Assembly: GCF_009806575.1 (NCBI RefSeq)
Contig: NZ_CP047095.1
Coordinates: 228,001-292,000 of the forward strand
DNA length: 64,000 bases
Reading direction: 5' to 3'
From: Rossellomorea marisflavi
GTDB taxonomy: Bacteria; Bacillota; Bacilli; Bacillales; Bacillaceae_B
Shown here: positions 1 through 16,554 of the stretch, piece by piece
Position numbering within the stretch: position 1 is the stretch's first letter
How the letters are laid out: every line of letters starts with the position of its first letter
Translations under genes and position numbers: made by a program
The notes under the pieces: model-generated
The model's input: the letters and a program-made list of their open reading frames with translations, nothing else
Told to the model about the DNA's origin: nothing
Databases searched by the model: none

Positions 1-1
1 G

Positions 2-322
2 TCGTTCCAGGGTGGCCTGCGCGTCCCTGCATACACGGCAAGTAAGCATGCGGTAGCAGGATTGACGAAGTCATTTGCCAACGAGTGGGGCAAGAAGGGC
101 GTCAATGTGAATGCCATTGCCCCTGGTTACTTCGAGACGGATAACACAGCGCAGCTCCGCGGGAACGCCGAGCGGAGTGCATCGATCACGTCACGCATCC
201 CTCAGGGGCGCTGGGGTCGTCCAGAGGATCTCAAGGGAGCCGTTGTCTTCCTCTCTTCGGATGCTTCCAACTACGTGAACGGACATATCCTCTGCGTCGA
301 TGGCGGATGGATGAGCTCATAA
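2..322 (+). CDS. kduD: 2-dehydro-3-deoxy-D-gluconate 5-dehydrogenase, 3' part
   Basis: C-terminal 106 residues of a short-chain dehydrogenase/reductase; the 5' part lies outside the window. The reading frame is open from the first bases and contains the catalytic YTASK (the YxxxK motif). It is followed by the family block [13 protein letters not shown] and the ending [27 protein letters not shown] resembles KduD closely, so NAD-dependent conversion of 3-deoxy-D-glycero-2,5-hexodiulosonate to 2-keto-3-deoxygluconate is the likely reaction. This step follows release of unsaturated uronate by enzymes such as the GH105 protein at 7067. A convergent terminator follows the stop codon. Another sugar SDR is possible because the NAD-binding half is not visible. 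Confidence 0.8.
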
Positions 323-329
323 TAAACGG

Positions 330-363
330 AAAAGCCCAAGAATGATTTCATTCTTGGGCTTTT
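330..363. terminator. Bidirectional intrinsic terminator
   Basis: A 16-bp perfect inverted repeat (arms 330-345 and 348-363) is flanked by A and T tracts. It lies between the convergent kduD and IclR genes and can serve both. Confidence 0.9.
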
Positions 364-372
364 CTATGCTCT

Positions 373-1134
373 TTATTCAAGGTCATTCAGGATATTGTTC
401 CGGCACGTCTCGACTTCTTTGATCAGGTTCTGCAATACTTCGTCCGTGAGGCGATAGGTAGGTACACTGACGCTGATCGCCCCGACGTTCTTGCCGCCCG
501 ATGTCGTGATGGACGCTCCCACGCAAAATACTTCATTCTCGTGCTCGCTATTGTCAAACGCATACCCCTGAGCACGCACCTTCTCGATTTCGTCAAAGAA
601 TCCTTCATGGGTGGTGATGGTATTGTCCGTCATCCTCACCAGGTCGATGGAATTCAGGTAGCGCCTGATTTCCTCATCGCTCTGGTCGGCGAGGATCGCC
701 TTTCCCATGGCAGAGCAGTAGAGCGGGATGTTTTTCCCCACCTTGGAATACAGACAGACCGGATTTTGACTTTCGATCTTTGCCACATAGACAACATGGA
801 TGTGGTCGAGTATCCCAAGGTGGACCGTTTCATTCGTCCGCGCCTGGAACGCTTCGAGATGGGGCTGGGCAATCTGTTTGATATCGAGCTGACTCAACGC
901 CTTCAGGGCATATTTGATGATCGATGGCCCAAGGCTGAATCGCTTCAGCTCAGGATCCTTTTGTACATAGCCGATGAGAACCAGCGTATCAAGGATCTTG
1001 AGGGCAGTCGAGCTGGACAGACCTGTTTCTTTTGCAATGGATTGAAGGGACTGGGGGCCATTGCTCGAAGATAGGTGATCCAGAATGAGGGACGCCTTGA
1101 TCAGCACGGTCCCGTAAGGTTTTTGAGTGGTCAT
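373..1134 (-). CDS. IclR-family transcriptional regulator, KdgR-like
   Basis: Full-length IclR regulator of 253 residues. The winged helix-turn-helix lies at about residues 27-60 (SLQSIAKETGLSSSTALKIL). The C-terminal IclR ligand domain (about 75-250) has the typical AMGKAILA and the late cysteine in EVFCVGAS. It stands next to kduD and convergent to it. IclR proteins of the KdgR type respond to 2-keto-3-deoxygluconate, so control of the uronate genes is the simplest inference. It also diverges from the transport operon starting at 1393, with 258 bases between, so it could act there too. The effector is not shown by the sequence. Confidence 0.85.
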   Translation of the reverse strand: MTTQKPYGTVLIKASLILDHLSSSNGPQSLQSIAKETGLSSSTALKILDTLVLIGYVQKDPELKRFSLGPSIIKYALKALSQLDIKQIAQPHLEAFQARTNETVHLGILDHIHVVYVAKIESQNPVCLYSKVGKNIPLYCSAMGKAILADQSDEEIRRYLNSIDLVRMTDNTITTHEGFFDEIEKVRAQGYAFDNSEHENEVFCVGASITTSGGKNVGAISVSVPTYRLTDEVLQNLIKEVETCRNNILNDLE

Positions 1135-1249
1135 GTTTTTCTCTCCTGTACCGCTTTTTATTTAGTATATCGAACAGATTATTGCTATACAAGACAATCG
1201 GTTTCCTATTTAGAAATAAAAAATAAATATTTAATTGTTCAAAAAATTG

Positions 1250-1300
1250 TTGTAATTCAAACGAACACAGAATATAATCAGTTTAAGTAAGCGCTTTCCC
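1250..1300 (+). promoter_or_regulatory. Promoter with operator at the start site
   Basis: A -35-like TTGTAA (1250-1255) and a perfect -10 TATAAT (1273-1278) are 17 bases apart, placing the start near 1285. The palindromic core AAGCGCTT (1289-1296), inside GTAAGCGCTTTCCC, sits directly at the predicted start, where a LacI-family repressor would block transcription. The same sequence in reverse orientation occurs at 9276-9290 before iolG. It could be the site of the LacI protein encoded at 8231 or a CcpA cre site. Confidence 0.7.
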
Positions 1301-1353: not shown

Positions 1354-1368
1354 GGTAAAACGCTTACC
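1354..1368. promoter_or_regulatory. Second LacI-type operator candidate
   Basis: GGTAAAACGCTTACC is a near palindrome with GGTAA/TTACC arms in the leader of the binding-protein gene, 25 bases before its start codon. It differs in core from the site at 1289 but has LacI-family half-site character. It may be a second operator about 70 bases downstream of the first. Confidence 0.45.
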
Positions 1369-1392: not shown

Positions 1393-2649
1393 GTGAGAAA
1401 ATGGAAGGTCAGTTTGCTTGTAGTCGTATCATTTGTACTTTTGTTCATGACGGCATGTTCAAACTCTGAAAAATCATCTTCGGATAAGAAGAAGCTTCAG
1501 TTCTTCGTCTCCGGTGATAATGTCGAAGGGGCTGCGCTTGCGACCATGTCGAAGAAGTATACGGAAGAAACAGGGGTGGAGATCGAGGTCGTGGATGTGC
1601 CGTTCAGTGATATGGCGACACGGATCACGAACATGGTACAGGCAGGGAATCCTCCTGCACTGGCACGTACGGCAGAATTCAATCCGATCTGGAGTGATTC
1701 ACTGGCAGATCTCAGCTCTACATTGAAGGATAAAAACGTAAGGGAAGACCTTGCGATTAAAGATGACGGCAAGATCAAAGCCATTCCAATCGATTTCACG
1801 GCAGTCGGTCTTTTCATCAATAAAGATTTGTTTGACAAAGCCGGAGTGAAGTACCCGACATCAGGTGATGATGTGTGGACATGGGATGAGTTTGTAAGCG
1901 CTTTAAAAACGGTGACTGAAAAAACGGATGCCAAATACGGAATGGTCATGGATCAATCCGAGCACCGCCTGAGCACCTTGCTCTATCAGTTCGGAAGCAA
2001 AGGATTCTATGAAGAAAACGGAAAGTACACCACAAATCCCGAAACGAAAAAAGGCCTCGAATATTTCGTGAAACTGAACGACGACAAAATCATGCCTAAA
2101 GCCGTTTGGGCTGCGGGTGAGGATCCATCTTCCATGTTCAAGAGCGGACAGGTGGCAGCGTACTACTCAGGTGTATGGCAAGTAAAAGATTTCGAGAAGA
2201 ACATCAAGAACTTCGAATGGGCAAGCGTCCAGATGCCTTATGAAACGGTCCGCTCCACGAACTTCGGTGGAAACTACATGGTGAAATTCGAAGGATCCGG
2301 AGTGGAGAAAGAAACGCAGAAATTCATCGACTGGCTTTACACGAAAGAAAACTATGAAGAGCTTGCAGGTCTCGGCGGATATCTTCCGGTTGTCCAGGAT
2401 GCAGAAGTGGACTACGGTGTGGGTGATGCAGGAACACATGCGTACGAAGTATACAACGAAGAGATCAACTCTACGGCCAAGGTAGCTGCCAAGTCAAAAT
2501 CAGAACGTGATACGATGCAATTGACGTCTGAAAAAATAGCCAATAACGTGCTCCGCGACAACATGATCAAGACGTTGAACGGCGAGCAATCCATCGATGA
2601 CACCATCAAGACGGTGGAGCAAAAGTACACGGATGCGTATGTAAAGTAA
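1393..2649 (+). CDS. Sugar ABC transporter substrate-binding lipoprotein (CUT1)
   Basis: A 418-residue extracellular solute-binding protein of family 1. The N-terminus has two basic residues, a hydrophobic stretch and a lipobox ending at the cysteine of MTAC (C22), so it should be a membrane-anchored lipoprotein. The mature part keeps the SBP_bac_1 pattern, including AIPIDFTAVGLFINKDLF and WTWDEFVSALKT. The start is GTG preceded by GGGG. It is the first gene of an operon with two permeases and no ATPase gene, so a shared ATPase such as MsmX must energise it. The neighbours suggest an oligosaccharide containing uronic acid. The ligand is inferred. Confidence 0.88.
   Translation: MRKWKVSLLVVVSFVLLFMTACSNSEKSSSDKKKLQFFVSGDNVEGAALATMSKKYTEETGVEIEVVDVPFSDMATRITNMVQAGNPPALARTAEFNPIWSDSLADLSSTLKDKNVREDLAIKDDGKIKAIPIDFTAVGLFINKDLFDKAGVKYPTSGDDVWTWDEFVSALKTVTEKTDAKYGMVMDQSEHRLSTLLYQFGSKGFYEENGKYTTNPETKKGLEYFVKLNDDKIMPKAVWAAGEDPSSMFKSGQVAAYYSGVWQVKDFEKNIKNFEWASVQMPYETVRSTNFGGNYMVKFEGSGVEKETQKFIDWLYTKENYEELAGLGGYLPVVQDAEVDYGVGDAGTHAYEVYNEEINSTAKVAAKSKSERDTMQLTSEKIANNVLRDNMIKTLNGEQSIDDTIKTVEQKYTDAYVK
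1892..1907. promoter_or_regulatory. Intragenic cre-like site
   Basis: TGTAAGCGCTTTAA (1893-1906) inside the binding-protein gene fits the CcpA cre consensus with one mismatch and shares the AAGCGCTT core with the sites at 1289 and 9279. It could be a roadblock site within the coding region. Codon constraint could also produce it. Confidence 0.4.
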
Positions 2650-2689: not shown

Positions 2690-2711
2690 TTCATGAAAAG
2701 AGGCTATGAAA

Positions 2712-5204
2712 ATGAATGACTATCAATTCACCGTCCAGCCGGGCGAACCGCTAAACCGCTGGGTCCACACCGATTTAACCATCGCTCCATACCAATCCGA
2801 TAAGGCCGTATTCGATCACCCTGTGAACATCACTGAAGAATATGTACAGATCGTTTATCCCGGGAGACAGCAATTCCTGGATCAGCGTCTGAAAGAAGAG
2901 ATCCTTCTTCCTGAAACGGATTTTCACCACATCTACTTCCCTTTTGAAAATCCCCGATTAGAGTTTTCGGCTTTCATCCCGACACCACATCTCCTGAGCG
3001 TCTATGGCAGGACGTTCATCAAGCCCGACCAAGGCGGTACATTTCCGTTCACGGTCAGCACGTGCGGAAGCGTCGAGATCTGGGTGAATGGTACGAAGCA
3101 ACTGAGCTGGACCCCCTATACAAGGAATCTTGCTTCCCATAAAGACATCACCTTGTCCCTTGAAGAAGGCTTTAATGAAGTCATTCTCTACATGGACGAC
3201 CTTGCCGAGAGGGATGTGAACTATTTCACCGAGCTCCGATATACGGGGAAGACGGCCCTTGAAGGCTACATACAGGTTCCGGCCAAAGCGGAACAAATCG
3301 AACAGGCAGAGCGCCTACTGACTTCCCTGCACTTTTCGAAAGACATCTATCGATCAGGACGATTGGAAGTCTATATGAACCGGGAAGAGGCTTCCGGCAT
3401 CGAAGAGCTGTTCGTCAATGTGAACCGCAATCATCTGTTGAATCCCGTGTTCGACAGTAAAGCCGACGACGAACTGGATGCCTTTGATTTCTCTTTTAGT
3501 GTGAATCTTGATGAAAATGGATTCCAGAAGCTCATGAGCGTAGATGAGCTGTCCTCGAACGGTCTGCTGCAGTTCGATATCGGCGTGGTGCTCCCTGGTG
3601 GAGTGCAAGTGGCGAGGAGGATGGTGGCTTCGATCCTGACGAACGACGATCCGGGTCGGTCATTCTCCGATTCTCTTCCGGAACGAAAGCGCGAAATCCT
3701 CGAATTCTTCTCTCAAAGCGAGAAGCTCGATCTCAATGCCGGTTTCAGCCTCATCCATCTGAACGGAAAAGTGGACGAACAAGCGAAGCGTCATATCAGG
3801 AGCTGCTTCGATGAAATACAGAAAAAAGGCGACTGCGCCGATTTCCGCCTGGCACCGCTGCTTGGATTCACCATCAAGTATCAGGACACGATCCCGGCCG
3901 ACTTTCATGAGGAGCTGAAGGAGCTCGCCGTGAACTTCCGATACTGGATCGACGAGCCGGGGAACGACGTGATGTGGTACTTCAGCGAAAATCATGCCCT
4001 GCTGTTCCATGTGTCCCAGTACTTCGCCGGACATCTCTATCCCGACGCAGCGTTCAGCGTGAGCGGAAGGACAGGGCGCCAGCAGTATGAAAAAGGGAAG
4101 GAACGACTGGAAGAGTGGTTTGAGGTGTTCCTGAAGTATGGCTATTCAGAGTGGAACTCGACGACCTACCTTCCGATCGACCTGATCGGATTCTTCAGTC
4201 TCTATGAATCGGCCCCGGATGAGCATATCCGGAAGCTTGCAAAGAAGGCATTGGATTTCACCTTCAAGATCATTGCCGTGAACCTGCACGGAAAGACGAT
4301 GAGTACGACCTATGGACGGGTGTATGAACACGATCTGAAGGCGATGGAGATGGGGGAGACGGCCAATCTGGCGTTCATCACGTGGAAAAAGGGCAAGCTC
4401 AACACGGCGATGAGGTGCACGACGCTCTTCTGTCTATCATCCTATGAACCGCCTACACTTGAAGACTATTTCATCGAGGATACCTCAAAGGCCCTCGTGA
4501 CCCAGTACAAACAAGGGATCAAAGAGGTCTATACGTACAATTACAAAACATCGAGCTACTGTATGAGCGCGGCAATACGCTTCAATTCCTATCAAAAAGG
4601 GCATCAGCAGCATGCCATGAATATCGCCCTCGACCAGGATAATACCCAGATATGGCTCAACCATCCCGGGGAAGCGGTCTACAGCGGTGAGAACAGGCCG
4701 AGCTTCTGGGCAGGGAACGGAATCAGCCCGAACATCACCCAATATAAGCAGTATATGTTCCTCGAGTATCGCCTGAAAGAGCCGTTCCTTCCATATATAC
4801 ATGCGTATCTTCCGTTCTGGAAGCTTGACGAAGTGAGGGAGGAAGGCAACTGGTTGTTTGCGAAGAAGGATGATGCCTACATCGGCTTGTATTTCAGCAA
4901 TGGTTACGAGCTGCAGGAGAAGGGCGCGATTGCACACCGGGAAGCCCGTTCATACGGGGCACATCACCGGGTGGTCGCGACATGTGCTTCAGGAGCAGAA
5001 GTGGGTTCATTCGAGGCATTCGTGGAAGAACAGATGAATGCAGCCATTTCGATCGACAGCCATCAATGGTCGTATGCGACGGAAAGAGCCGGAGCGCTCC
5101 AGGTGATCGATGATCAGCTCCATGTGGACGGGAAGCCGGTAGAATACGACGCAGGCTATGAAGTCGAGGAAGAGCATATAAGCATTCCACAGTTTCAAAA
5201 GTAA
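2712..5204 (+). CDS. Large cytosolic protein, putative polysaccharide lyase/glycan hydrolase
   Basis: An 830-residue protein without signal peptide or membrane segment, so it should act in the cytosol on imported substrate. I do not recognise a named family. The N-terminal ~180 residues look like a beta-sandwich (GSVEIWVNGTKQLSW resembles a sugar-module strand). The middle (about 320-560) is helix-rich, like an alpha/alpha toroid. It contains SENHALLFH (N427, H428) and TTYGRVYEHD (Y534, R536). The C-terminal part is beta-rich and carries WLNHPGE (N650, H651) and SFWAGNG (664-670). An Asn-His pair plus a Tyr in a toroid resembles polysaccharide lyases, but this is a motif-level resemblance only. 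I chose ATG 2712 over 2706 because it is better spaced from AGAGG. It lies between binding protein and permease, so co-expression is expected. Confidence 0.6.
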   Translation: MNDYQFTVQPGEPLNRWVHTDLTIAPYQSDKAVFDHPVNITEEYVQIVYPGRQQFLDQRLKEEILLPETDFHHIYFPFENPRLEFSAFIPTPHLLSVYGRTFIKPDQGGTFPFTVSTCGSVEIWVNGTKQLSWTPYTRNLASHKDITLSLEEGFNEVILYMDDLAERDVNYFTELRYTGKTALEGYIQVPAKAEQIEQAERLLTSLHFSKDIYRSGRLEVYMNREEASGIEELFVNVNRNHLLNPVFDSKADDELDAFDFSFSVNLDENGFQKLMSVDELSSNGLLQFDIGVVLPGGVQVARRMVASILTNDDPGRSFSDSLPERKREILEFFSQSEKLDLNAGFSLIHLNGKVDEQAKRHIRSCFDEIQKKGDCADFRLAPLLGFTIKYQDTIPADFHEELKELAVNFRYWIDEPGNDVMWYFSENHALLFHVSQYFAGHLYPDAAFSVSGRTGRQQYEKGKERLEEWFEVFLKYGYSEWNSTTYLPIDLIGFFSLYESAPDEHIRKLAKKALDFTFKIIAVNLHGKTMSTTYGRVYEHDLKAMEMGETANLAFITWKKGKLNTAMRCTTLFCLSSYEPPTLEDYFIEDTSKALVTQYKQGIKEVYTYNYKTSSYCMSAAIRFNSYQKGHQQHAMNIALDQDNTQIWLNHPGEAVYSGENRPSFWAGNGISPNITQYKQYMFLEYRLKEPFLPYIHAYLPFWKLDEVREEGNWLFAKKDDAYIGLYFSNGYELQEKGAIAHREARSYGAHHRVVATCASGAEVGSFEAFVEEQMNAAISIDSHQWSYATERAGALQVIDDQLHVDGKPVEYDAGYEVEEEHISIPQFQK

Positions 5205-5282: not shown

Positions 5283-6152
5283 GTGAGGAGAAAAGATAAA
5301 AACCAGAAATGGGCTCTGGCCTTCGTCATTGTCAACATGGTTTTATTCACGATATTTTTTGCCTGGCCCGGCATACTCGGCGTGTACTATTCGTTCACGG
5401 ACTACACCGGGATCAGCGCTTCGTTTATCGGACTGGATAACTATATTCAACTGTTCCAGGACAAAAGCTTCTATAAATCCCTTGGAAGGACGATCCTCTA
5501 TACAGCGGTCGGAGTACCACTTCTATATGCATTCTCCCTGCTGATATCGGTCCTCCTGGTGAGCAAGTTCACAAAGGGGAAATCCGTGGCCAAGGTCATT
5601 TTCTTCTTCCCATGGCTGATTTCCTCCATCGTGACCGGGGTCATCTTCCGCTGGTTGTTCGGGGAAAGCTTCGGGTTCGTCAACTTTGTCCTTTCACTGA
5701 TCGGAATGGAGCCCGTGGGCTGGTCCTCTGACGGGAATATGGCGTTCATACTCGTTCTATTCGCCACCGTGTGGATGGGGACGGCATTCAATATGCTCCT
5801 GATGATCTCGGCGCTCGTGAATATCCCGCAATCGTACTATGAAGCAGCCGATATCGACGGCGCCAGCGGCTGGCAGAAATTCATCCATGTGACGCTTCCC
5901 AGCCTAAAGCCGACGTCCTTCATGGTCATCCTGCTGTCGGTCATCCATCTGATGAAAGAGTTCCCGATGGTGCAGGCCCTCAATAACGGGGGACCCGGTA
6001 CGGATAACACCTTCCTCGTCCAATATATTTACCAGACAGGATTCGACCAGCGGAATATCGGCTATGCAAGCGCGGTTTCCATGGTACTGTTCGTCATTCT
6101 CCTTCTCTTTGCAATCATTAATCTGAAGGTGGAAGAAAGGAGCAAATTATGA
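5283..6152 (+). CDS. Sugar ABC transporter permease (MalF/LacF type)
   Basis: 289 residues with six predicted membrane helices and the EAA loop EAADIDGASGWQKFIHVTLPSL, which contacts the ATPase. The GTG start follows AGGGGGAAG. Four bases overlap the next permease, so the two are translationally coupled and form the heteromeric channel. The operon has no ATPase gene, as for CUT1 importers that share MsmX in Bacillus. Confidence 0.9.
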   Translation: MRRKDKNQKWALAFVIVNMVLFTIFFAWPGILGVYYSFTDYTGISASFIGLDNYIQLFQDKSFYKSLGRTILYTAVGVPLLYAFSLLISVLLVSKFTKGKSVAKVIFFFPWLISSIVTGVIFRWLFGESFGFVNFVLSLIGMEPVGWSSDGNMAFILVLFATVWMGTAFNMLLMISALVNIPQSYYEAADIDGASGWQKFIHVTLPSLKPTSFMVILLSVIHLMKEFPMVQALNNGGPGTDNTFLVQYIYQTGFDQRNIGYASAVSMVLFVILLLFAIINLKVEERSKL

Positions 6153-6976
6153 TGAAGCGATATCGCGGCAGTACGATCCTGATGACGGCGATCATGGCCA
6201 TACTGGCCATCGCCTATCTGTTCCCGGTCCTGTGGCTTCTGCTCAGTTCGTTCAAGCCGGGCAGCGAGCTCTTCAGCTTCCCGCTGAAGCTATTTCCTGA
6301 AGAATTCACACTGGATAACTACAAATACGCATGGTCGACCATGGAGTTTACGAAATACGTGCTGAACACCTCCTTCGTCACCATCGTGGCGACCCTTTTG
6401 ACCATCATGGCGAGTGCTTCCTGCGGGTACGCACTGGCGAAATACAAATATAAGTGGCTCAGCGTCTTCTTCATCTGTATCCTGGCCACGACAATGCTTC
6501 CGACGGAGGTCATCATGAATCCGACGTTCACGGTCATCCAGAAGGTCGGGCTGTACGATAACCTGTGGGGACTGATCATCCCGTCCATCAATACGGCAAC
6601 CGGGATCTTCATGTTCAGGCAGTTCTTCATGACGGTACCCGATGATCTCCTCGAAGCAGCACGGATCGACGGAGCGAATGAAGGAAGGATCTTCTTCCGC
6701 CTCATGCTCCCGATCGCAAAACCGATCATCATCACGCTCGCCATCTTCTCCTTCCAGTGGAGATGGAATGATTACATCTGGCCGCTCATCGTCATCAGCG
6801 ACCCGAACAAATACACCATCCAGGTCGCCATCCGGAGCATCGTCGGGGCGGATAATATCGACTGGGTCCTTCTATTATCGGCATCCGTCATCTCCCTACT
6901 GCCGATGGTGTTGCTCTACGCGATCTTCCAGCGCTACATCATGGACACGGGAGCCAGTTCCGGTTTGAAAGATTAA
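6149..6976 (+). CDS. Sugar ABC transporter permease (MalG type)
   Basis: 275 residues with about six membrane helices and the EAA loop EAARIDGANEGRIFFRLMLP. It begins in an ATGA overlap with the preceding permease and is the second half of the CUT1 channel. GH105 follows 90 bases later. This fits import and intracellular hydrolysis of an oligosaccharide, as in the B. subtilis yes/yte pectin loci. Confidence 0.9.
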   Translation: MMKRYRGSTILMTAIMAILAIAYLFPVLWLLLSSFKPGSELFSFPLKLFPEEFTLDNYKYAWSTMEFTKYVLNTSFVTIVATLLTIMASASCGYALAKYKYKWLSVFFICILATTMLPTEVIMNPTFTVIQKVGLYDNLWGLIIPSINTATGIFMFRQFFMTVPDDLLEAARIDGANEGRIFFRLMLPIAKPIIITLAIFSFQWRWNDYIWPLIVISDPNKYTIQVAIRSIVGADNIDWVLLLSASVISLLPMVLLYAIFQRYIMDTGASSGLKD

Positions 6977-7066
6977 TGGAAAAGGATAGGAGATTTACAG
7001 TCTGTTAGCGAATGTATTTATTAAGGAATACGGCATGACGAAAAGATGCTATGCGAGGTGGAAGCA

Positions 7067-8182
7067 ATGACACTACTGATAAAGAATGTCCAGGAAACGG
7101 TCAAAAAGGTGACCGGACAGCTGTTGGACCTGAAAAGACCAGAGAATGAATCGGAGCTTGAGGGGATTGGCGATGGAGCCAAGATCGGCTATTTCCCAAG
7201 GGATTTCGGAATGGAAGAATGGGATTGGCCACAGGGAGTCGGATTGTATGGACTGAAGAGCCTGTCGGGTCAAGACGGCTTCCCGGACTATCACACGTTC
7301 TTGAAATTGTGGGCTGAGGATCAGAAGGAAAGGGGCCTTCCGCTCAAGAACATCAACACCACAGCCCCGCTCCTCACTCTCATGGATGTGGAGGGGACGG
7401 AGCAGCTTGCCCTGGAGTGGGCGGACTGGATCATGGAGAAGGCACCGCGTACCGAACGTGGAGGCCTTCAACACGTCACCAGCGGCGCCACCAAGAATGA
7501 TCTGACGATGAATGACGGTCAGGTCTGGATCGATACGCTCTTCATGGTCGTCCTTTTCCTCGGGAAGATGGGGGTCAGGTACGACCGTAAGGAATGGAAG
7601 GAAGAAGCGGCGCGCCAATTCCTCCTTCATGTAGAGCTCCTTTTCAGTGAAGAGGACGGCCTTTTCTATCACGGCTTCGATTTCAATGGTCACCACCGGT
7701 TCAGTGAAGCCTACTGGTGCCGGGGGAACAGTTGGTTCACTTTGGCAGCACCCGAGTTTCTTGCTATGATGGAAGGACAGCTGGATGACGGAACGTACAA
7801 GACCATTGCCCAAACCTACAAAGCCCAGGTCGACAAACTAGTGAAGCTTCAAGCACAGAATGGCCTTTGGCATACGCTGCTTGATGATCAGGAATCCTAC
7901 ACGGAAGTATCGGGATCCTCTTCCATCGCGGCGGGCATCCTGAAGGGCATCCGCTATGGATTGCTGGATGAATCCTACCTGGATGTGTGCAGGCGAGCAG
8001 TTGATTCCATCCTACAGGAAGTCGACGATGACGGCACCGTCCTTAAGGTATCGGCGGGAACGGCAATCGGGGCCTCCAAAGAGGACTATAAGAAGATCAT
8101 CATTGCTCCCACTGCTTACGGGCAGGCCCTGGCGATTGTACTATTTTCTGAAGTTCTTCAGCATGAAAAATTAGTAGCCTGA
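7067..8182 (+). CDS. GH105 unsaturated uronyl hydrolase (YteR/YesR-like)
   Basis: A 371-residue glycoside hydrolase family 105 protein with an alpha/alpha barrel. It has no signal peptide and is therefore cytosolic. NDGQVWIDTLFM (D150, D156) contains the aspartate that begins vinyl-ether hydration in this family, and WCRGNSW (217-223) is the conserved active-site loop. The enzyme removes a 4,5-unsaturated uronic acid from the non-reducing end of an oligosaccharide left by a lyase. The chosen ATG lies six bases after GAGGTG; an upstream ATG at 7046 has no comparable site. Its product would enter the KduI-KduD route, and kduD is at the left edge. Whether it takes unsaturated galacturonyl, glucuronyl or an inositol-linked uronide cannot be read here. 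Confidence 0.88.
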   Translation: MTLLIKNVQETVKKVTGQLLDLKRPENESELEGIGDGAKIGYFPRDFGMEEWDWPQGVGLYGLKSLSGQDGFPDYHTFLKLWAEDQKERGLPLKNINTTAPLLTLMDVEGTEQLALEWADWIMEKAPRTERGGLQHVTSGATKNDLTMNDGQVWIDTLFMVVLFLGKMGVRYDRKEWKEEAARQFLLHVELLFSEEDGLFYHGFDFNGHHRFSEAYWCRGNSWFTLAAPEFLAMMEGQLDDGTYKTIAQTYKAQVDKLVKLQAQNGLWHTLLDDQESYTEVSGSSSIAAGILKGIRYGLLDESYLDVCRRAVDSILQEVDDDGTVLKVSAGTAIGASKEDYKKIIIAPTAYGQALAIVLFSEVLQHEKLVA

Positions 8183-8230: not shown

Positions 8231-9247
8231 ATGAAAACAACAATCTATGATGTGGCAAAGGAAGCGGGCGTATCCATTGCGACCGTATCAAAAGTCATCA
8301 ATAATACAGGGCGGATCAGTGAGAAGACCCGCAAGAAGGTAACGAAGATCATGGGGGACCTCGAGTATCAGCCGAGCAGCGTGGCAGCAGCCCTCACGGG
8401 GAAACGGACGTTCACCATCGGCGTGCTCGTACCCGATATCGCCAACCCCTTCTTCGCAGAGATTGCCCGTGCCCTTGAGAATAACGCCAGGAAAAGCGGC
8501 TATACGATCATCCTATGCAGCACGGATTACCAGAAGGAGCGGGAACAGGATTATTTCGACCTGCTCATGAAGAAGCAGGTGGACGGAATGATCATCGCCA
8601 CCGAACCGAAGGAGCTTCAGAAGTTCAAGAATCTGGAGAGCCGCGGCATCCCCTACATCATGTTCTCCTTCGATCACCTGGAGCTCGACTCCCATGTGGT
8701 GACGACGGATGACGTGAAGGGGGGCTACCTTGCCGGGAGATACCTTCTGGACCACGGTCATCGTCATGCAGCCGTCATCACGGAGCTGCAGCGTGCGAGT
8801 GGAAAGCTCAGGCTTGAAGGCTTTAAGAGGGCATTCGGAGCGGCGGGGATCGAGCTCGATCTCGATTCCGTAGTCAACTCCAAGTCCACTTTTGAGGATG
8901 CGAAGAAAGCAGCAAGGAAGATCCTGAAGAAAGAAAACCGTCCTTCAGCCGTCTTCGCCTCAACAGATCTGATTGCGGCCATTTTCATCAATGAAGCGCG
9001 GAAAGCAGGCGTATCGATACCCGGCGACATGTCGATCATCGGATTCGATAACACGATCTATGCCGAAATCGCGGATCCGGGATTGACGACGATCGCCCAG
9101 CCGATTCCAGAGCTTGCTTCCTATGCGATCGAGCAATTGATGAAATCCATCAAGGACCCCGACAGTCCTGCCCATCGCATCACGCTGGCTCCCTATCTTG
9201 TCGAGAGGGATTCAGTGAAGACAGTAGAGAACCATGAAGCTGACTGA
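8231..9247 (+). CDS. LacI-family transcriptional regulator
   Basis: 338 residues. The DNA-binding helix-turn-helix lies at 4-23 (YDVAKEAGVSIATVSKVI), with the hinge helix near 50-58. A periplasmic-binding-protein-like effector domain follows (GVLVPDIANPFFAEIARALE; late GDMSIIGFDNT). The ATG follows GAGGAG. It lies between the transport/GH105 genes and the iol operon. The LacI-type palindrome AAGCGCTT at 1289 and 9279 brackets it, so it probably represses both units. The inducer is unknown; inositol, an inositol uronide or a uronate are the candidates. Confidence 0.9.
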   Translation: MKTTIYDVAKEAGVSIATVSKVINNTGRISEKTRKKVTKIMGDLEYQPSSVAAALTGKRTFTIGVLVPDIANPFFAEIARALENNARKSGYTIILCSTDYQKEREQDYFDLLMKKQVDGMIIATEPKELQKFKNLESRGIPYIMFSFDHLELDSHVVTTDDVKGGYLAGRYLLDHGHRHAAVITELQRASGKLRLEGFKRAFGAAGIELDLDSVVNSKSTFEDAKKAARKILKKENRPSAVFASTDLIAAIFINEARKAGVSIPGDMSIIGFDNTIYAEIADPGLTTIAQPIPELASYAIEQLMKSIKDPDSPAHRITLAPYLVERDSVKTVENHEAD

Positions 9248-9275: not shown

Positions 9276-9290
9276 GGAAAGCGCTTAACT
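9276..9290. promoter_or_regulatory. Operator/cre-like site upstream of iolG
   Basis: GGAAAGCGCTTAACT lies 39 bases before iolG. Its reverse complement matches the site at 1286-1300 almost base for base, beyond the palindromic core. I found no convincing -35/-10 pair here, so it may act as a roadblock on transcription from the lacI side or with an unrecognised promoter. Confidence 0.6.
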
Positions 9291-9328: not shown

Positions 9329-10357
9329 ATGGAAATGACAGTGGGTATTATAGGTGCAGGCAGGATCGGAAAGATCCACGTGGAAAACTTGAGGAAGTTG
9401 AGGAATGTGAAAGTGAAGAGCGTGTCAGATGTTCAGGTATCACACCTGCAGGACTGGGCAAAGGAGACGGGGATCGAACATCTGACAACGGATTACCGGG
9501 AGCTCCTTGCCGATTCGTCCATCTCTGTGATTTTCATCTGTTCCCCGACAAACACCCATGCCGATCTCATACGCGAGGCAGCAGAAGCAGGCAAACATAT
9601 CTTCTGCGAAAAGCCGGTCAGTTTCACCGTCGAAGAAACCGAAGCGGCACTGGCAGCGGTGAAAAGGGCGGGTGTGAAGCTCCAGGTAGGATTCAACCGG
9701 CGCTTTGACGCCAACTTCCAGAAGGTGCGCGAGCTGGTGAGCGAAGGGAAAGTCGGGACTCCGAATATCCTCCGTATCACATCAAGGGATCCGGAGCCGC
9801 CGAATGCTGCCTACATCCGTACATCAGGCGGTCTGTTCATGGATATGACCATCCATGATTTCGATATGGCCCGGTACATCATGGGGAGCGAAGTGGTCGA
9901 AGTCCATGCCCACGGTGCCGTCCTTGTGGATCCTGCCATCGGGGAAGCAGGAGACATCGATACGGCCATCGTCTCCCTGAAGTTTGCCAATGGTGCCCTC
10001 GGGGTCATCGAGAACAGCCGCCGAGCTGCTTACGGATACGATCAGCGCCTTGAAATCTTCGGAGATAAAGGAGCCGCCCAGGCTGAAAATGTAAGGGCTA
10101 ACACGGTGAAACTTGCAACGGAAGATTATGTGACGACGGAAAAACCGCTCTACTTCTTCCTTGAGCGTTACACCCAAGCGTATGTGGAAGAAGTGATCCA
10201 ATTCATCCAGGCCATCGAGAATGATGCGCCGGTGTCATGCTCTGGATTTGACGGGCTGCAGGCCGAACGGATTGCCAAAGCGGCCAGGACCTCCCTTGAA
10301 ACGGGCGTACCGGTCAAACTGACCCACGAAACGGTCAAAAGGAGTGAGATCGTATGA
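9329..10357 (+). CDS. iolG: Inositol 2-dehydrogenase
   Basis: 342 residues of the GFO/IDH/MocA family. GAGRIG at 9-14 binds NAD. The catalytic triad K95 (CEKP), D172 and H176 (MDMTIHDFDMAR) matches the known inositol dehydrogenase arrangement. It oxidises myo-inositol to 2-keto-myo-inositol in the cytosol, the first step of the iol pathway. It heads the iolG-C-A-D-E-B operon and overlaps iolC by four bases. The related scyllo-inositol or D-chiro-inositol activity cannot be excluded. Confidence 0.92.
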   Translation: MEMTVGIIGAGRIGKIHVENLRKLRNVKVKSVSDVQVSHLQDWAKETGIEHLTTDYRELLADSSISVIFICSPTNTHADLIREAAEAGKHIFCEKPVSFTVEETEAALAAVKRAGVKLQVGFNRRFDANFQKVRELVSEGKVGTPNILRITSRDPEPPNAAYIRTSGGLFMDMTIHDFDMARYIMGSEVVEVHAHGAVLVDPAIGEAGDIDTAIVSLKFANGALGVIENSRRAAYGYDQRLEIFGDKGAAQAENVRANTVKLATEDYVTTEKPLYFFLERYTQAYVEEVIQFIQAIENDAPVSCSGFDGLQAERIAKAARTSLETGVPVKLTHETVKRSEIV

Positions 10358-11355
10358 ACCCACTATCGTTTCATGAAGACCGTCCCTTCGACCTGATCGC
10401 AGTCGGCCGACTGTGCATCGATCTGAATGCGAATGAAACGAACCGTCCGATGGAAGAAACGAGCACCTTCACGAAATACGTCGGAGGATCACCTGCCAAT
10501 ATCGCCATCGGCTCTGCACGACTGGGCATGAAGACCGGCTTCATCGGAAAGGTATCCGACGACCAGATGGGCAGGTTCATCACCGGATACCTTGAGCGGA
10601 ATGGGATCGATACAGAAGGGGTGAAGATCGACAACACCGGAGCCGTGACGGGCCTTGCCTTCACGGAGATCAAAAGTCCGGAAGACTGCAGCATCCTGAT
10701 GTACAGGGACAATGTGGCCGACCTGCTCCTTCATCCGTCCGAGGTGAATGAAGCTTATATCAGAAGGTCCAAGGCCCTGCTCATCTCGGGAACGGCCCTT
10801 GCCCAAAGCCCGTCCCGTGAAGCGGTATTCCTCGCCCTGGAGTATGCGGTGAAGCATGATGTCACCGTGTTCTTCGATCTCGACTATCGGCCTTACACGT
10901 GGAAGGATGAAGCAGAAACGGCGGTCTATTATAACCTGGCTGCCGAGAAATGCGATTGCATCATCGGCACGCGTGAAGAGTTCGACATGATGGAACGGCT
11001 CCTGAACCGCACCGAATCGGATGATCACTACACGGCAACACGCTGGTTCTCCCATCGTGCGGACATCGTCGTCATCAAGCACGGAGGGGCGGGATCGATC
11101 GCCTATACGAAAGACGGGGGTTCACACCGAAGTGGGATCTTCCGGACGAATGTACTGAAGACGTTCGGAGCGGGAGATTCCTACGCCTCCGCCTTCATCC
11201 ACGGCCTGATGAAAGGAACGGATGTATCCGAAGCCATGAAGCGTGGAAGCGCATCGGCCTCGATCGTCATCTCCAGGCACAGCTGCTCCGACGCCATGCC
11301 GACAGAAGAAGAGCTTTTGGAACATATGGATTCAGCCTTATACGAAACAATCTAA
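10354..11355 (+). CDS. iolC: 5-dehydro-2-deoxygluconokinase
   Basis: 333-residue PfkB-family sugar kinase. The N-terminal block [17 protein letters not shown] and the C-terminal [11 protein letters not shown] (GAGD with catalytic Asp) are the two family signatures. It phosphorylates 2-deoxy-5-keto-gluconate (DKG) to DKG-6-phosphate. Translation is coupled to iolG through ATGA. The aldolase that should follow (IolJ) is absent from this cluster. Confidence 0.92.
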
Positions 11356-11380
11356 TACAAGATGGAAAGGGAGAGGTAGC

Positions 11381-12844
11381 ATGACAGTGACAACCGTACG
11401 TACAGTGAAGAACTATATCGGGGGAAAGTGGATCGAATCAGCATCGGAGAATACGGAGACCGTCTACAACCCTGCCACCGGTGAAGAAATCGCCATCGTA
11501 AAGCTCAGTACGAGGGAAGAAGTGAATGAAGCGGTCGAAGTGGCGCATGAAGCGTTCAAGTCCTGGTCCCAAGTACCGGTGCCGAAACGCGGGCGCATCC
11601 TGTTCAAGTATCAGCAGCTCCTGGTCGAGCATTGGGATGAACTGGCGAAGCTTGTCACGATCGAGAACGGTAAGAGCTTCGCCGAAGCACACGGGGAAGT
11701 CCTCCGCGGCATCGAATGCGTCGAGTTTGCCGCAGGGATCCCGAACCTCATGATGGGCAAGCAGCTGCCTGACATCGCAGCCGGTTTGGAATCAGGCATG
11801 TACCGGTACCCGATCGGGGTCGTGGGCGGCATCACGCCGTTCAACTTCCCGATGATGGTCCCTTGCTGGATGTTCCCTCTCGCCATCGCCTGCGGGAATA
11901 CATTTGTCCTCAAGCCTTCCGAACGGACCCCGCTTCTTGCGGCAAGGCTTGCCGAGCTCTTCGAGGAAGCCGGTCTACCGAGCGGCGTATTGAATATTGT
12001 CAACGGGGCCCATGATGTCGTGAACGGCTTGATCGAAGAGAAGAAGGTAAAGGCGATCTCCTTTGTCGGCTCCCAGCCGGTCGCAGAACTCGTCTACAAG
12101 AAAGGAACAGAGAATCTGAAGCGTGTGCAGGCACTGTCAGGTGCGAAGAACCATTCCATCGTCCTGAAGGATGCGAACCTGGAAGTCGCCGTATCCCAGA
12201 TCACGGGAGCCGCCTTCGGTTCTGCCGGTGAACGCTGCATGGCCGCCGCAGTCGTCGCCGTAGAGGAGAGCATCGCCGACGCATTCATCGAGAAGCTGAA
12301 GCAGGCCGCAGACGACATCACGATCGGGAACGGTTTGGAAGAAGGCGTCTTCCTCGGGCCGGTCATCCGCCAGAATCATAAGGAACGCACATTGAGCTAT
12401 ATTGATTCCGGGATCTCACAAGGCGCGACCCTCCTCCGTGATGGCAGGAAAGACAAGGAGACGGAAGGGGAAGGATACTTCCTCGGACCGACGATCTTTG
12501 ATCATGTGACGCAGGAAATGAAGATCTGGCAGGATGAAATCTTCGCCCCTGTCCTTTCCGTCGTCAGGGTGAAGGACCTTACAGATGCCATCGACCTGGC
12601 CAATGCCTCTGCGTTCGCAAACGGTGCGTGCATCTATACGGATAGTGCCTCAGCCATCCGCCAGTTCAGGGAAACGATGGATTCAGGGATGCTGGGCGTC
12701 AATATCGGAGTGCCGGCACCAATGGCGTTCTTCCCGTTCTCCGGCTACAAGGATTCTTTCTACGGTGACCTTCATGCGAATGGAACCGACGGCTTGGAAT
12801 TCTATACAAGGAAGAAGATGGTCACGGCCCGTTACGTCAAATAA
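11381..12844 (+). CDS. iolA: Methylmalonate/malonate-semialdehyde dehydrogenase
   Basis: 487-residue aldehyde dehydrogenase of the MMSDH type, CoA-dependent. The catalytic cysteine is C286 in [12 protein letters not shown]. The family replaces the usual general-base Glu region, seen here as LSGAKNHS. It converts malonate semialdehyde, the end of the inositol route, to acetyl-CoA and CO2. The ATG at 11381 follows GGGAGAGGT. An open frame upstream to 11243 lies inside iolC and is ignored. An intrinsic terminator follows the stop and may lower expression of iolD-E-B. Confidence 0.93.
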
Positions 12845-12913: not shown

Positions 12914-14833
12914 ATGGAAACAATCCGACTGACCACTGCACAGGCCCTAGTAAAGTTCCTGAATGCGCAGTATGTCGAGTTTGATGGCAGGAAAGAGCGA
13001 TTCGTCAAAGGGGTCTTCACCATTTTCGGACATGGAAATGTCCTTGGCCTCGGGCAGGCACTCGAAGAGGATCCGGGTGAACTTGAGGTGTACCAGGGCA
13101 GGAACGAGCAAGGGATGGGCCATGCAGCCATGGCCTTCGCCAAGCAATCGAAACGGAAGCAGATCATGGCCTGCACCGCCTCGGTCGGTCCCGGTTCTGC
13201 CAATATGGTCACGGCTGCCGCCACGGCAACAGCCAACCAGATCCCGGTCCTGTACCTGCCGGGAGACGTCTTCGCCTCGCGCCAGCCCGATCCCGTCCTC
13301 CAGCAGATCGAGCAGACCCATGATCTTTCCATATCCACCAATGACGCGTTCCGTCCTGTCAGCAAATATTGGGACCGGGTGAACAGACCCGAGCAGCTCA
13401 TGCAGGCGATGCTGAACGCCATGCGCGTCCTCACCAACCCTGCAGACACAGGAGCCGTTACGATTTCACTGCCCCAGGATGTACAGGGGGAAGCATGGGA
13501 TTATCCACAATCATTCTTCCAAAAACGTGTCCATCGCATCGAGCGTCGCATGCCTTCCGTTGAAAGTGTAGAGGATGCCGTGGAATTGATCCGCTCTAAA
13601 AAGAGGCCCTTCATGATCCTAGGAGGAGGCGTCCGTTATTCGGAAGCAGGCGGGGCGTTCCTCCGATTCGCAGAAGCGTTCCGGATCCCCTTCGGTGAAA
13701 CCCAGGCAGGGAAGAGCGGGGTGCCGGGAAGTCACAGCCTGAATCTTGGAGGGGTGGGTGTGACCGGCAATGCAGCCGCCAACCTCCTCGCATCAAAGGC
13801 CGACCTGATCATCGGTGTGGGCACACGATTCACGGATTTCACCACCGGTTCCAAGGGATTGTTCCAGGAAGCAGACGTCCTCACGATCAACATCTCTGAT
13901 TTCCATGCCGGTAAGCTTGATGCGGTGAAGGTGGTCGCAGACGCAAAAGCTGGTCTTGAAGCCATTGCGTCGGGTCTTGGAAACTACCTGTCTTCCTATC
14001 AGGACGAAATTGAAGGAGCACGCGGGGAGTGGGAAGCAGAACTTCACCGCCTCCACCAGATCGATCCAGGTGATTCATTTACACCTGAAATCGCCGGACA
14101 GCTTGACGGGGAGCTTCCTCATTACAAAGAATCATTGAAGACGAATCTGGCTCAAACCGCGGTCATCGGGGCCGTCAACCGTCTCGTTGATGAGGATGCG
14201 GTGATCGTCGGTGCGGCGGGCAGCCTTCCGGGTGATCTTCAGCGTATGTGGGTTGCCAAGGAGGAGGACACCTACCATATGGAATACGGCTATTCCTGCA
14301 TGGGGTATGAAATCGCCGGGGCCCTGGGCGTGAAGCTTGCCGAGCCGGGCCGGGAAGTATATGCATTGGCCGGTGACGGGAGCTATCTCATGCTCCACAC
14401 GGAATTGATCACAAGCCTGCAGGAAAGGAAGAAGATCAATATCCTCCTCTTTGATAATGCCGGATTCGGCTGCATCAATAATCTTCAGATGGACAACGGG
14501 ATGGGAAGCTTCGCCACGGAGTTCCGCCATCGCAATCAGGCAAGCGGCCGCATGGATGGTCCTGTCATGACGATCGATTATGCAAAGGTCGCTGAAGGGT
14601 ACGGTGCCAAAACCTATTCCGTCCGCACCCTTGAAGAACTGGAAACGGCCATCAGGGATGCCAAGGATCAGCCGGTGAGCACCCTCATCGACATCAAAGT
14701 CCTGCCGAAGACCATGACCCATGGCTATGATTCCTGGTGGAACACAGGGGTTGCCGAAGTATCGGAAAAACAAAGCATCCGTGAAGCGTATGATCGGAAT
14801 CTGGCCAAACGTCAAACGGCGCGTCAGTATTGA
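12914..14833 (+). CDS. iolD: 3D-(3,5/4)-trihydroxycyclohexane-1,2-dione hydrolase
   Basis: 639-residue thiamine-diphosphate enzyme of the acetolactate synthase fold. It has the N-terminal pyrimidine-binding domain with the essential glutamate (YQGRNEQG), a middle domain and a C-terminal diphosphate domain with [12 protein letters not shown] to NAGFGCINN (GDG...N). It opens the cyclohexane ring to 5-deoxy-glucuronate. AGAAGGAGGGAATC precedes the ATG. It overlaps the region used for the iolE ribosome binding site. Confidence 0.93.
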
Positions 14834-14847
14834 TGGGAGGAAAAGAG

Positions 14848-15744
14848 ATGTTTAACGGGAGAGAGATCAAGCTGGCCATCGCCCCGATCGGATGGACCAA
14901 CGATGACATGCCGGAGCTCGGCGGAGAGGTCACCTTCGAGCAGTGCATCAGTGAAATGGCCCTGGCCGGATTCCAGGGAAGCGAAGTGGGGAATAAATAC
15001 CCCCGTGATCCGGATCAGCTGAGGAAGGCCCTTGACCTCAGGGGGCTGTCCATTGCGAGTGCATGGTTCAGCGCGCACCTGACTACGGATGGGTATGAGC
15101 GCACCGCTACTGAATTCAGTGCCCACCGTGATTTCCTTCATGAAATGGGGGCAAAGGTCATCGTCGTCAGCGAGCAGGGGAAGAGCATCCAGGGACAGAT
15201 GGATGTACCGCTATTCGACCATAAGCCGGTCTTTAACGAGGAAGAATGGGAACTCCTCACTGACGGGCTCAATCGGCTTGGAAGCCTTGCAGCAGAAAAA
15301 GGGATGAAGCTCGTTTATCACCACCATATGGGAACGGGCGTCCAGACAACCGATGAGATCAGAAAGCTCATGGAACGGACCGATCCCGCCAACGTGTCCC
15401 TTTTGTATGATACAGGTCACCTCGCGTTTTCAGGAGAAGATCCCCTTGTGATCCTTGAAGACTATATGGACCGGATCCATCATGTCCATCTGAAGGATGT
15501 CAGAGCGGAAGTCGTCGAGAGGGTGAAGCGGGAGAAATGGAGCTTCCTCCAGGCCGTGAAGGCAGGGGCATTCACCGTCCCCGGCGATGGAAGCATCGAC
15601 TTCCGCCCTGTCTTCGGATTGATCGCGGAAGGTGCGTATGAAGGGTGGTTCGTCGTCGAAGCAGAACAGGACCCGGCCATCGCCAACCCCCTGGAGTATG
15701 CCATCAAAGCAAGGGGCTATATCAGGGAAACGGCAGGCATCTAG
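14848..15744 (+). CDS. iolE: 2-keto-myo-inositol dehydratase
   Basis: 298-residue TIM-barrel protein of the xylose-isomerase/AP-endonuclease-2 superfamily. It dehydrates 2-keto-myo-inositol to trihydroxycyclohexane-dione. Metal ligands are visible in [18 protein letters not shown] and HVHLKDV. The start is ATG 14848, seven bases after GGGAGG. Upstream in-frame TTG/ATG codons overlap the end of iolD and lack a ribosome site. Confidence 0.92.
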
Positions 15745-15765
15745 AACAGAAGGAGGAGAATCACC

Positions 15766-16554
15766 ATGTATGAAAAGCTCGGAGAATTACAGCAAGGATA
15801 CAATACCGTCACGGATATGGACTCCAAGCATCCGGATATGCTGCAGGATATCGGGGTGTACCGGCTGAGTGCCGGAGACAGGGAAACCCTGCATGACGAA
15901 GGGAAGGAAACCGCGGTACTCCTCATGGAAGGATCCATCACCCTGGAGTGGAACGGACACGTTCAGGACATCAGCCGGGGAAGTGTGTTCGATGAAGATC
16001 CGTGGTGCCTCCACGTCCCGAAAGGCGTCCAGGTCATCGTGACGGCCAAAGGGGAGAGCGAAGTGCTGGTGCAGAAGACCGATAACGCCGCAGACTTTGC
16101 ACCGAAGCTTTATACGCCCGAGGATTGCTCGAGCACGGTGGCGGGAGAAGGCGTATGGAACGGGACCGCTGAGCGCGTGATCCGTACCATCTTTGATCAC
16201 GGTAACGCTCCCTATTCGAATCTCGTCATCGGCGAAGTGATCTCCTATCCAGGAAGGTGGTCGAGCTATCCCCCCCATCATCATGATCAGCCAGAGGTGT
16301 ACTACTATAAGTTCGACCGCCCCCAAGGATTCGGCTGCGCCATGGTCGGACCCGACGCCCACCGCGTCGAGCACAACAGCTATATCACCATTCCCGGCAG
16401 CCTGGATCATCCCCAGGCGACGGCACCGGGTTACGCCATGTACTTCTGCTGGATGATCCGTCACCTCGACGACAATCCGTGGACGGAACGGATCATGGAA
16501 GAGGAGCATGCATGGCTCTTGGAAGAAAACGCAAAGATCTGGCCGGACCGATAA
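15766..16554 (+). CDS. iolB: 5-deoxy-glucuronate isomerase
   Basis: 262-residue bicupin. The metal site is in SYPPHHHDQPEVYYY of the C-terminal cupin, with a later histidine in GSLDHPQATAPGY. It converts 5-deoxy-glucuronate to 2-deoxy-5-keto-gluconate. AGAAGGAGG precedes the ATG. It is the last gene of the iol operon and is followed by a terminator. No iolT/iolF transporter, iolH, iolI, iolJ or iolR lies in the cluster. Confidence 0.92.
   Translation: MYEKLGELQQGYNTVTDMDSKHPDMLQDIGVYRLSAGDRETLHDEGKETAVLLMEGSITLEWNGHVQDISRGSVFDEDPWCLHVPKGVQVIVTAKGESEVLVQKTDNAADFAPKLYTPEDCSSTVAGEGVWNGTAERVIRTIFDHGNAPYSNLVIGEVISYPGRWSSYPPHHHDQPEVYYYKFDRPQGFGCAMVGPDAHRVEHNSYITIPGSLDHPQATAPGYAMYFCWMIRHLDDNPWTERIMEEEHAWLLEENAKIWPDR

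Follow-up and report, generated by a model that had tools for sequence, protein, structure and literature searches.

The stretch of DNA analysed here, 64,000 nucleotides of the soil-type bacterium Rossellomorea marisflavi (contig NZ_CP047095.1, positions 228,001 to 292,000; hereafter the window), opens with a run of genes in which functions for uronate and for inositol catabolism stand side by side. Gene content was checked by open reading frame (ORF) calling and with Pfam and NCBIfam profiles, which confirmed the run given in a preliminary description of the locus, namely a CUT1 importer, a lyase-like protein, a GH105 hydrolase and inositol (iol) genes. All on the plus strand are a CUT1 solute-binding lipoprotein (SBP; 1393..2649; SBP_bac_8, 130.4 bits) with the lipoprotein-type N-terminus of a hydrophobic stretch and then Cys, an 832-residue protein predicted from the fold of its model to be a uronate lyase (2706..5204), two CUT1 permeases (5283..6152 and 6149..6976; both PF00528), an unsaturated uronyl hydrolase of the GH88/GH105 type (7046..8182; PF07470, 240.9 bits), a LacI-family regulator (8231..9247; assigned with Pfam) which, from its putative operator sites, is proposed to control both halves of the locus, and iolG, C, A, D, E and B. 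No import ATPase for the CUT1 system is encoded in the cluster. The kduD gene that was also placed in this run is present (2-dehydro-3-deoxy-gluconate 5-dehydrogenase; TIGR01832, 399 bits, cut-off 338.85), with only its last 322 bases inside the window (1..322, plus strand). Directly upstream of the window the order is kdgA, kdgK, kduI, a gene for a TIM barrel protein (AP_endonuc_2, xylose-isomerase-like) and kduD; KduI scored 460.5 bits with its NCBIfam profile (curated cut-off 250), and the kinase labelled kdgK scored under the limits of the NCBIfam models it matched. Between the kdu genes and the importer stand a terminator-like stem-loop (328..365, both strands, 17 pairs on the plus and 16 on the minus strand; consensus match only) and, on the minus strand, a gene for a KdgR-like regulator of the IclR family (373..1134; PF01614, 183.4 bits; 163.6 bits with the KdgR model, whose cut-off is 275). 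A promoter-like TTGTAA-17-TATAAT pair precedes the importer/lyase operon (1250..1278, plus strand; consensus match only); in 17 kb the same consensus scan found 8 such pairs where 12.8 were expected.

The claim that the locus holds a full route for degradation of the inositol ring stood for IolG (inositol 2-dehydrogenase; 9329..10357; TIGR04380, 468.9 bits, cut-off 355), IolC (5-dehydro-2-deoxygluconokinase; 10354..11355; TIGR04382, 407.7 bits, cut-off 300), IolA (CoA-acylating methylmalonate-semialdehyde dehydrogenase; 11378..12844; TIGR01722, 582.5 bits, cut-off 448.5), IolD (12914..14833; TIGR04377, 949.4 bits, cut-off 715; the sole match over cut-off in the genome) and IolE (inosose dehydratase; 14845..15744; TIGR04379, 429.7 bits, cut-off 290). 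It held less well for the divergent IolB (5-deoxyglucuronate isomerase; 15766..16554), which at 109.2 bits lies below its cut-off of 205 and is 76% identical to the protein of a Neobacillus niacini cluster, and for the aldolase gene iolJ, which is not in the cluster. The one class II aldolase family match in the genome lies outside the cluster and is 59% identical to an IolJ-like protein of Neobacillus. Between iolA and iolD (12850-12871) a consensus scan also marked a hairpin of terminator type, followed up by a T run, which could possibly lower the expression of iolD, E and B. The reported absence of an inositol transporter was upheld for the genome as well as the cluster: among 22 Sugar_tr matches (best 104 bits) no IolT-like carrier was found, and of the four best-scoring loci only the one at 104 bits resembles the Neobacillus IolT-like protein, at 27% identity over 130 residues. 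Since no such carrier was found, inositol must arrive another way.

The 832-residue protein fell into no family of Pfam or NCBIfam. Relatives were found at 52 loci in a genome scan, and the window sequence was aligned with 35 of them; 14 of the 36 sequences gave a weak Pfam match to PA14. Against the PDB the sequence alone gave two chance-level matches (best E 0.16) and the 36-sequence profile nothing at E <= 10. An AlphaFold2 model of the full length, made with the 36 sequences, reached a predicted local distance difference test (pLDDT) score of 89.8 and a predicted template modelling (pTM) score of 0.90. With this model Foldseek returned many GH2 enzymes mixed with Alg17c, HepC, GAGase II, chondroitin ABC lyase and BACCELL_00875. 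We think that the dominance of GH2 comes from the N-terminal beta domains of the model, and the core (residues 318-832) was therefore modelled separately (pLDDT 89.3). The best 15 PDB chains for the core, which represent about ten different proteins, comprise 14 chains of uronate lyases and one of a dermatan sulfate epimerase (E 1.7e-8 to 2.6e-4), with template modelling scores (TM-scores) that are modest at 0.34-0.47 by query length. The set contains heparinase III, dermatan sulfate epimerase 1, GAGase II, GAGase VII, Atu3025, exoHep, hyaluronate lyase, Dp0100, HepC and a PL8 alginate lyase, and some of these proteins appear more than once. The predicted model thus shows, at these modest scores, the alpha/alpha toroid and beta-sandwich of known uronate lyases, and this bears out the earlier suggestion that the cytosolic protein is lyase-like. 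N429, H430, Y488, Y540 and H699 are kept in all 36 aligned sequences, the window included; the spacing from N429 to Y488, counted along the sequence, is 59. PL12 and PL17 enzymes use an Asn (or Asn-His) followed by a Tyr at a distance of some 54-57 residues, and the likeness in spacing is a lead rather than a test. On the evidence of the model it is highly likely that the protein has lyase activity, and its absence from Pfam and NCBIfam sets it apart as a candidate new lyase family. That it is instead an epimerase or hydrolase of the same fold appears most improbable: dermatan sulfate epimerase 1 is the second-best match of the core and the TM-scores leave room for such a reading, but lyases make up the other 14 of the 15 best chains, GH105 acts on lyase products, and kduI or kduD lies near the lyase gene in several genomes. 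Since neither the 832-residue protein nor the GH105 protein has a signal-like start, both should be cytoplasmic.

The solved structures closest to the GH105 protein are 3qwt (253.9 bits) and 3pmm (247.6 bits). All 13 GH105 proteins compared from lyase loci keep H143, D163, M167 and H209, and by match start positions D163 falls at Asp143 of YteR, the Asp of vinyl hydration. In unsaturated rhamnogalacturonan the linkage cleaved is alpha-1,2. If the double bond is formed at C4, the unsaturated residue is the same whether it derives from glucuronic or galacturonic acid, and one joined to inositol by an alpha-1,2 link would then closely imitate that substrate. The enzymes RhiN and YesR, which act on unsaturated rhamnogalacturonan, are reported to have Trp and Asn at the positions of Tyr40 and Asp88 of YteR (PMC4528949). 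The window protein has invariant W59, W61, N102 and N104, a likeness to RhiN and YesR by residue type and not by aligned column. In an NCBIfam comparison it also scored 350.5 bits, under the cut-off of 420, with a model named beta-galactosidase BglB; a literature search for the origin of that name gave no result.

The resemblance to RhiN and YesR raises the alternative that importer, lyase, GH105 and kdu genes degrade a uronide of pectin (rhamnogalacturonan I, RG-I) or of an arabinogalactan-protein (AGP), and that the iol operon is an unrelated neighbour. GH2 and GH51 genes found with relatives of the lyase would suit side chains of RG-I or AGP, a gene near L026 (loci and genomes are referred to by L and G numbers) looks GH28-like by eye, and the full-length model also matches BACCELL_00875, a rhamnose-glucuronate lyase (E 3.2e-6; the core alone only weakly, E 0.06). 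However, the genome has two further GH105 genes whose neighbours, read by eye, are of pectin type, with uxaA/uxaB-like genes and an esterase at one locus and GH28-like and pectinesterase-like genes at the other, and no rhamnose genes were seen in the iol-linked clusters (ORFs read by eye; a Pfam tally of 55 neighbour proteins in which 25 of 80 families were displayed). Furthermore, this alternative does not account for the shared operators, for a linkage to iol that recurs in differing gene orders, or for the two genomes in which the only iolG over cut-off lies in the lyase operon (see below). We regard it as unlikely.

Genes flanking the 52 lyase loci were counted with tblastn, which was preferred because the ORF-based neighbour table undercounts (for example GH105 in L053, L054 and L057). 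In the examined flanks GH105 was found at 26 of the 52 loci, KduI at 11 and iol genes at nine (L006-L012, L015 and L016); weak matches to IolG or IolA queries (25-34%) in L043, L049 and L053 were not counted as iol genes. The gene order of the linked clusters differs in at least five ways. N. niacini PL-B1 has, as a single run, importer, lyase, GH105, LacI, iolG-C-A-D-E, aldolase, iolB, GH2 and GH51. In L007-L009 iolG, iolE and a GH51 gene precede kduI; L008 and L009 also have, upstream, GH38, GH95 and a kinase of the fructokinase type, and L007 has a ManA gene. The order in Salipaludibacillus is GH38, lyase, importer, GH105, LacI, iolG-A-B-C-D-E, and in Pseudalkalibacillus divergent araA/araB-type genes are followed by a symporter, iolG-B-C-A-D-E, LacI, kduD, kduI, kdgA, importer, lyase and GH105. 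Halobacillus has a convergent iol operon, and Salibacterium has GH2 followed by iolA-B-C-D-E-G. When iolG was sought in 13 genomes (the window's own and 12 others, the Neobacillus metagenome-assembled genome (MAG) of L029 being left out), ten of them, namely the own genome, L006-L012, L015 and L016, had a copy over cut-off on the contig of the lyase gene and at most 16 kb away from it. G002 and G004 have no other iolG over cut-off than the one in the lyase operon; both have a second iolE copy elsewhere, and G004 has iolA, B, C and D with an IolJ-like aldolase in another operon. In a tree of the lyases, made without L027, where no open frame was found, and without the partial L045, and with L014 taken as iol-linked for its operators and not for adjacency, the iol-linked members form one clade of ten (99/97) plus L015, and linkage takes 2 changes compared with 10.1 in shuffles (0 of 500 as low). 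Among 36 Rossellomorea genomes the lyase occurs in three and iolD over cut-off in five, the three being among the five.

The intergenic stretches upstream of the importer and separating lacI from iolG yielded a palindrome, GKTAAGCGCTTAMC. Its putative LacI operators are AGTAAGCGCTTTCC (1286..1299) and GTAAAACGCTTACC (1355..1368), each with 2 mismatches, and GGAAAGCGCTTAAC before iolG (9276..9289), the only site in the genome at <=1 mismatch; all three are on the plus strand, and the first starts 8 bases after the promoter-like pair. At <=2 mismatches these were the only matches in the 64-kb window (0.22 expected; none of 100 shuffles reached 3), and all fall at the two predicted control regions, that of the importer/lyase operon and that of iolG. 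A strict palindrome scan found the motif in Neobacillus and others and missed the imperfect sites of the window. In six genomes 18 of 25 sites at <=1 mismatch lie before importer, iol or GH38 genes. All four sites in G004 are within the cluster; in G005 four of eight precede cluster genes and one more lies inside a neighbouring kinase ORF; in G011 four of five precede importer, iol or GH38 genes, and in G010 one of two, before GH38. Marinococcus has four of its five sites before lyase-operon or iol-type genes, the operator being shared there by scattered genes on four contigs (the lyase operon, iolG, iolC/iolG and an iolJ-like gene), and the fifth precedes a major facilitator superfamily (MFS) gene that shares 37% identity with one from an iol operon of Neobacillus. 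The segment VSIATVSKV, presumably the recognition helix of LacI, is identical in 8 of 8 LacI proteins examined. A second putative operator, TTTCCTATTTAGAAA (1202..1216, plus strand; exact copies), is common to the importer region and the region before kdgA. Three Rossellomorea genomes each have exactly two exact copies of TTTCCTATTTRGAAA, one before kdgA and one in the gap between iclR and the SBP gene, the copies in the two other genomes being placed by the same distances to the lyase gene. When one mismatch is allowed, the three genomes have 2, 2 and 1 additional sites at other places. The gap copy may act on the IclR gene itself.

These motifs bear on a further alternative, that a uronide oligosaccharide and free inositol are met together in plant material and placed under one regulator, but are not chemically joined. 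Next to iol in the Pseudalkalibacillus and Halobacillus clusters stands a sodium:solute symporter, through which free inositol could be taken up, and a Neobacillus carrier, IolT-like by eye, lies near its separate iol operon. In the window genome, however, no IolT-like carrier was found, and the importer region carries both uronate-side and inositol-side control motifs, as would be expected for a substrate that yields both. In the lyase-free Rossellomorea genomes G043 and G056, too, iol stands together with a CUT1 importer and a glycosidase-like gene. We consider mere co-occurrence of the two compounds unlikely. Another candidate substrate is a glycan of mannose and glucuronate, similar to xanthan or glucuronomannan, on which lyase, GH105 and GH38 would act: L008, L013, L015 and L018 have GH38 no more than 10 kb from the lyase gene, and L013, L015 and L018 belong to the sister group of the main iol-linked clade. 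Such a glycan would leave the co-regulation of iol and the presence of GH51 and GH2 unexplained, and in L015 both GH38 and the iol set, which is complete there, have a copy of the operator. For the window it is very unlikely; for relatives without iol it may hold.

A number of observations weigh against a joint uronide-inositol system. The iolD survey took 35 of the 52 loci as well as the own genome, and 15 of those 35 lyase-bearing genomes have no iolD over cut-off. Two of the 15, L017 (a MAG) and L019, have importer permeases 61-68% identical to those of the window, so that importer and lyase can serve without inositol use. Lyase and iolD over cut-off occur together in 21 genomes (the own and 20 others), of which only ten are linked, the other eleven having no iol gene in the examined lyase flanks. 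The linked ten consist of nine from one lyase clade and L015, and since some are close kin (the own genome and L006; L007-L009) the independent cases of linkage are fewer than ten. As to the remaining three among the 13 genomes searched for iolG, the gene and the lyase gene are on different contigs in Marinococcus (L014) and Vagococcus (L013), and G033, whose lyase is distant, has no iolG over cut-off. GH105 was not found in the examined flanks of L011, L012 and L014 (the last ends at a contig end), nor kdu genes in the examined stretches of L010/L093; the window itself is without GH38, GH2 and GH51, and its cluster without iolJ. As to the operators, the motif was derived partly from the same regions that were later scanned, and a reversed-pattern control gave 1, 5, 3, 1, 1 and 1 sites per genome. 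The genome-wide scan brought up eight sites not noticed earlier, three each in Marinococcus and G005 and one each in G010 and G011; two are at iol-type genes, one is at the MFS gene and five are elsewhere. The operator may also be a CcpA (cre) site, since its core resembles such catabolite sites; the TG...CA ends of the cre consensus are missing. Because lyase relatives occur in genomes without iolD, the lyase family as a whole cannot be inositol-specific, and this idea was rejected. Lyases from the Lactobacillaceae, Lachnospiraceae and most spirochaetes examined must be used differently, the inositol being wasted or other glucuronosyl glycans being cut.

Four of these lyases, in Lactobacillus and Companilactobacillus (L024, L025, L030 and L048), stand with GH2 and three of the four with GH51, with no matches to CUT1, GH105 or kdu in the examined flanks; these lactobacilli include a bee-gut species. 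A second protein of about 550-576 residues is encoded beside the lyase at 6 of the 52 loci (L015, L021, L022, L023, L026 and L031); the members scanned, at L015:18925-20655 and L021:3899-5560, matched no Pfam family.

Despite the points against it, we consider it very probable that the uronide and inositol genes form one joint pathway: the linkage recurs across genera in differing orders, a LacI-type operator precedes both parts, and the model of the 832-residue protein has a uronate-lyase fold. The inositol-linked uronide put forward in the preliminary description is retained to this extent, qualified by the lyase relatives without iolD, by a kduD cut at the window edge and by the lack of an aldolase gene in the cluster. 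It is likely that the substrate contains a uronosyl-inositol bond. That the kdu, importer/lyase/GH105 and iol operons constitute one catabolic unit or regulon for uronosyl-inositol, probably derived from plant glycosyl inositol phosphorylceramides (GIPCs), is probable, if to a slightly lesser degree.

From the gene families, the lyase fold, the conserved linkage and the distribution of operators, all obtained by computation, we infer the following reactions. The CUT1 system would import the intact oligosaccharide, Man-alpha-1,4-GlcA-alpha-1,2-myo-inositol (mannose, glucuronic acid and inositol) or decorated forms of it, and in the cytoplasm the 832-residue lyase would remove the sugar at O4 of glucuronic acid by beta-elimination. 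GH105 would then hydrate the resulting unsaturated uronyl-alpha-1,2-inositol and so free inositol. The uronate half would be processed by KduI, KduD, KdgK and KdgA, and inositol by IolG, IolE, IolD, IolB, IolC, an aldolase encoded elsewhere and IolA. LacI would act as repressor of both the importer/lyase and iol operons, and the IclR protein would link the importer region to the kdu operon, the sign and the ligands of both regulators being, like the identity of the glycan, part of the proposal.

Rose cells have been reported to release alpha-D-Man-(1,4)-alpha-D-GlcA-(1,2)-myo-inositol derived from GIPC (PMC4230332), and Arabidopsis wall extracts to contain inositol-phosphate glycans, an unphosphorylated hexose-uronic acid-inositol and pentose-bearing forms (PMC11496612). 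The free trisaccharide-like compound fits a route of lyase and then GH105, and with it as substrate no phospholipase would be needed, which the preliminary description did not point out. Arabinose, galactose, mannose, glucose and fucose are described in GIPC heads (PMC9113257, PMC12201980); the GH38, GH2 and GH51 genes in the clusters of several relatives, for mannosidase, galactosidase or arabinofuranosidase, together with the ManA gene in L007, fit these sugars. GIPCs have been called major sphingolipids on Earth in a review (PMC11907402), in which glucuronic acid is mentioned only in the GIPC section, with two occurrences. Taken with the gene content and the regulation, the published free oligosaccharide tips the balance slightly towards a GIPC-derived substrate. 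The most specific form of the proposal, a regulon dedicated to the GIPC carbohydrate head in which free Man-GlcA-inositol and forms decorated with arabinose or galactose are used by a new intracellular lyase-like family and by a GH105 splitting unsaturated uronyl-alpha-1,2-inositol, with LacI and IclR reading the two halves separately, is put forward tentatively, with about an even chance at best. If true, it would show by what route bacteria feed on plant membrane glycans and supply a regulator and a set of marker genes for this process; it would also add a candidate new lyase family and explain how the extracellular Man-GlcA-inositol released by plant cells is catabolised. Among the titles and abstract openings listed from searches of open-access literature, none describes a bacterial pathway for the inositol-glucuronate head of GIPC.

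Other iol arrangements were seen in the genomes searched. In G056 (L097:4962-19001) and G043 (L098:1040-16764) the iol operon is joined to a CUT1 importer and a 700-residue DUF5054/GH38-like protein (Pfam assignment made on the L097 protein), and no lyase was found in either genome; these are possibly a second kind of inositol-glycoside operon. G033, N. niacini NBRC 15566, has at L085:532-12864 and L094:2070-9254 iolC-A-D-B 76-83% identical to those of the window, beside GH38 genes, a gene for an Exo_endo_phos protein, a mannose-6-phosphate isomerase gene (by eye) and sugar-kinase-like genes. Neither stretch contains the lyase, and the genome lacks both iolG and iolE over cut-off. Further along the window, at 18647-21893, genes for a VTC-domain protein, a DUF4956 protein and a CotH kinase stand in a row and are unrelated to the uronide/inositol cluster.

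The system is best placed among known ones by its separate halves. With the iol operon of the Bacillus subtilis type, which encodes ring breakdown by IolG, C, A, D, E and B, the window shares these functions, but it has no iolT, no iolJ in the cluster and a divergent IolB, and is joined to a CUT1 importer and a lyase; its regulator is of the LacI family, whereas DeoR-type regulators stand beside the related iol operons L078 and L087 (read by eye). The G043 and G056 operons are like the window in joining iol to an oligosaccharide importer and a glycosidase-like gene, and unlike it in having a DUF5054/GH38-like protein and no lyase that could be found. The predicted core fold of the 832-residue protein resembles that of heparinase III, GAGase II and VII, Atu3025, exoHep, Dp0100 and the hyaluronate and alginate lyases, which belong to PL12, PL35, PL15, PL39 and PL8. 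Unlike lyases of the heparinase III, GAGase and Atu3025 type, it has extra N-terminal beta domains, no sequence match and no signal-like start. In its proposed reaction it would come close to the Rha-alpha-1,4-GlcA lyase BACCELL_00875 (5nok), a PL27 enzyme reported to act on gum arabic (PMC8377490), which likewise would remove a terminal sugar at O4 of glucuronic acid. Finally, systems with a GH105 of the YesR/RhiN type and kduI/kduD share with the window both the GH105 residues and the adjoining genes for the pathway of the unsaturated uronate (4-deoxy-L-threo-5-hexosulose uronate, DHU), but the other half of their substrate is rhamnose, whereas in the window system we propose that it is inositol.

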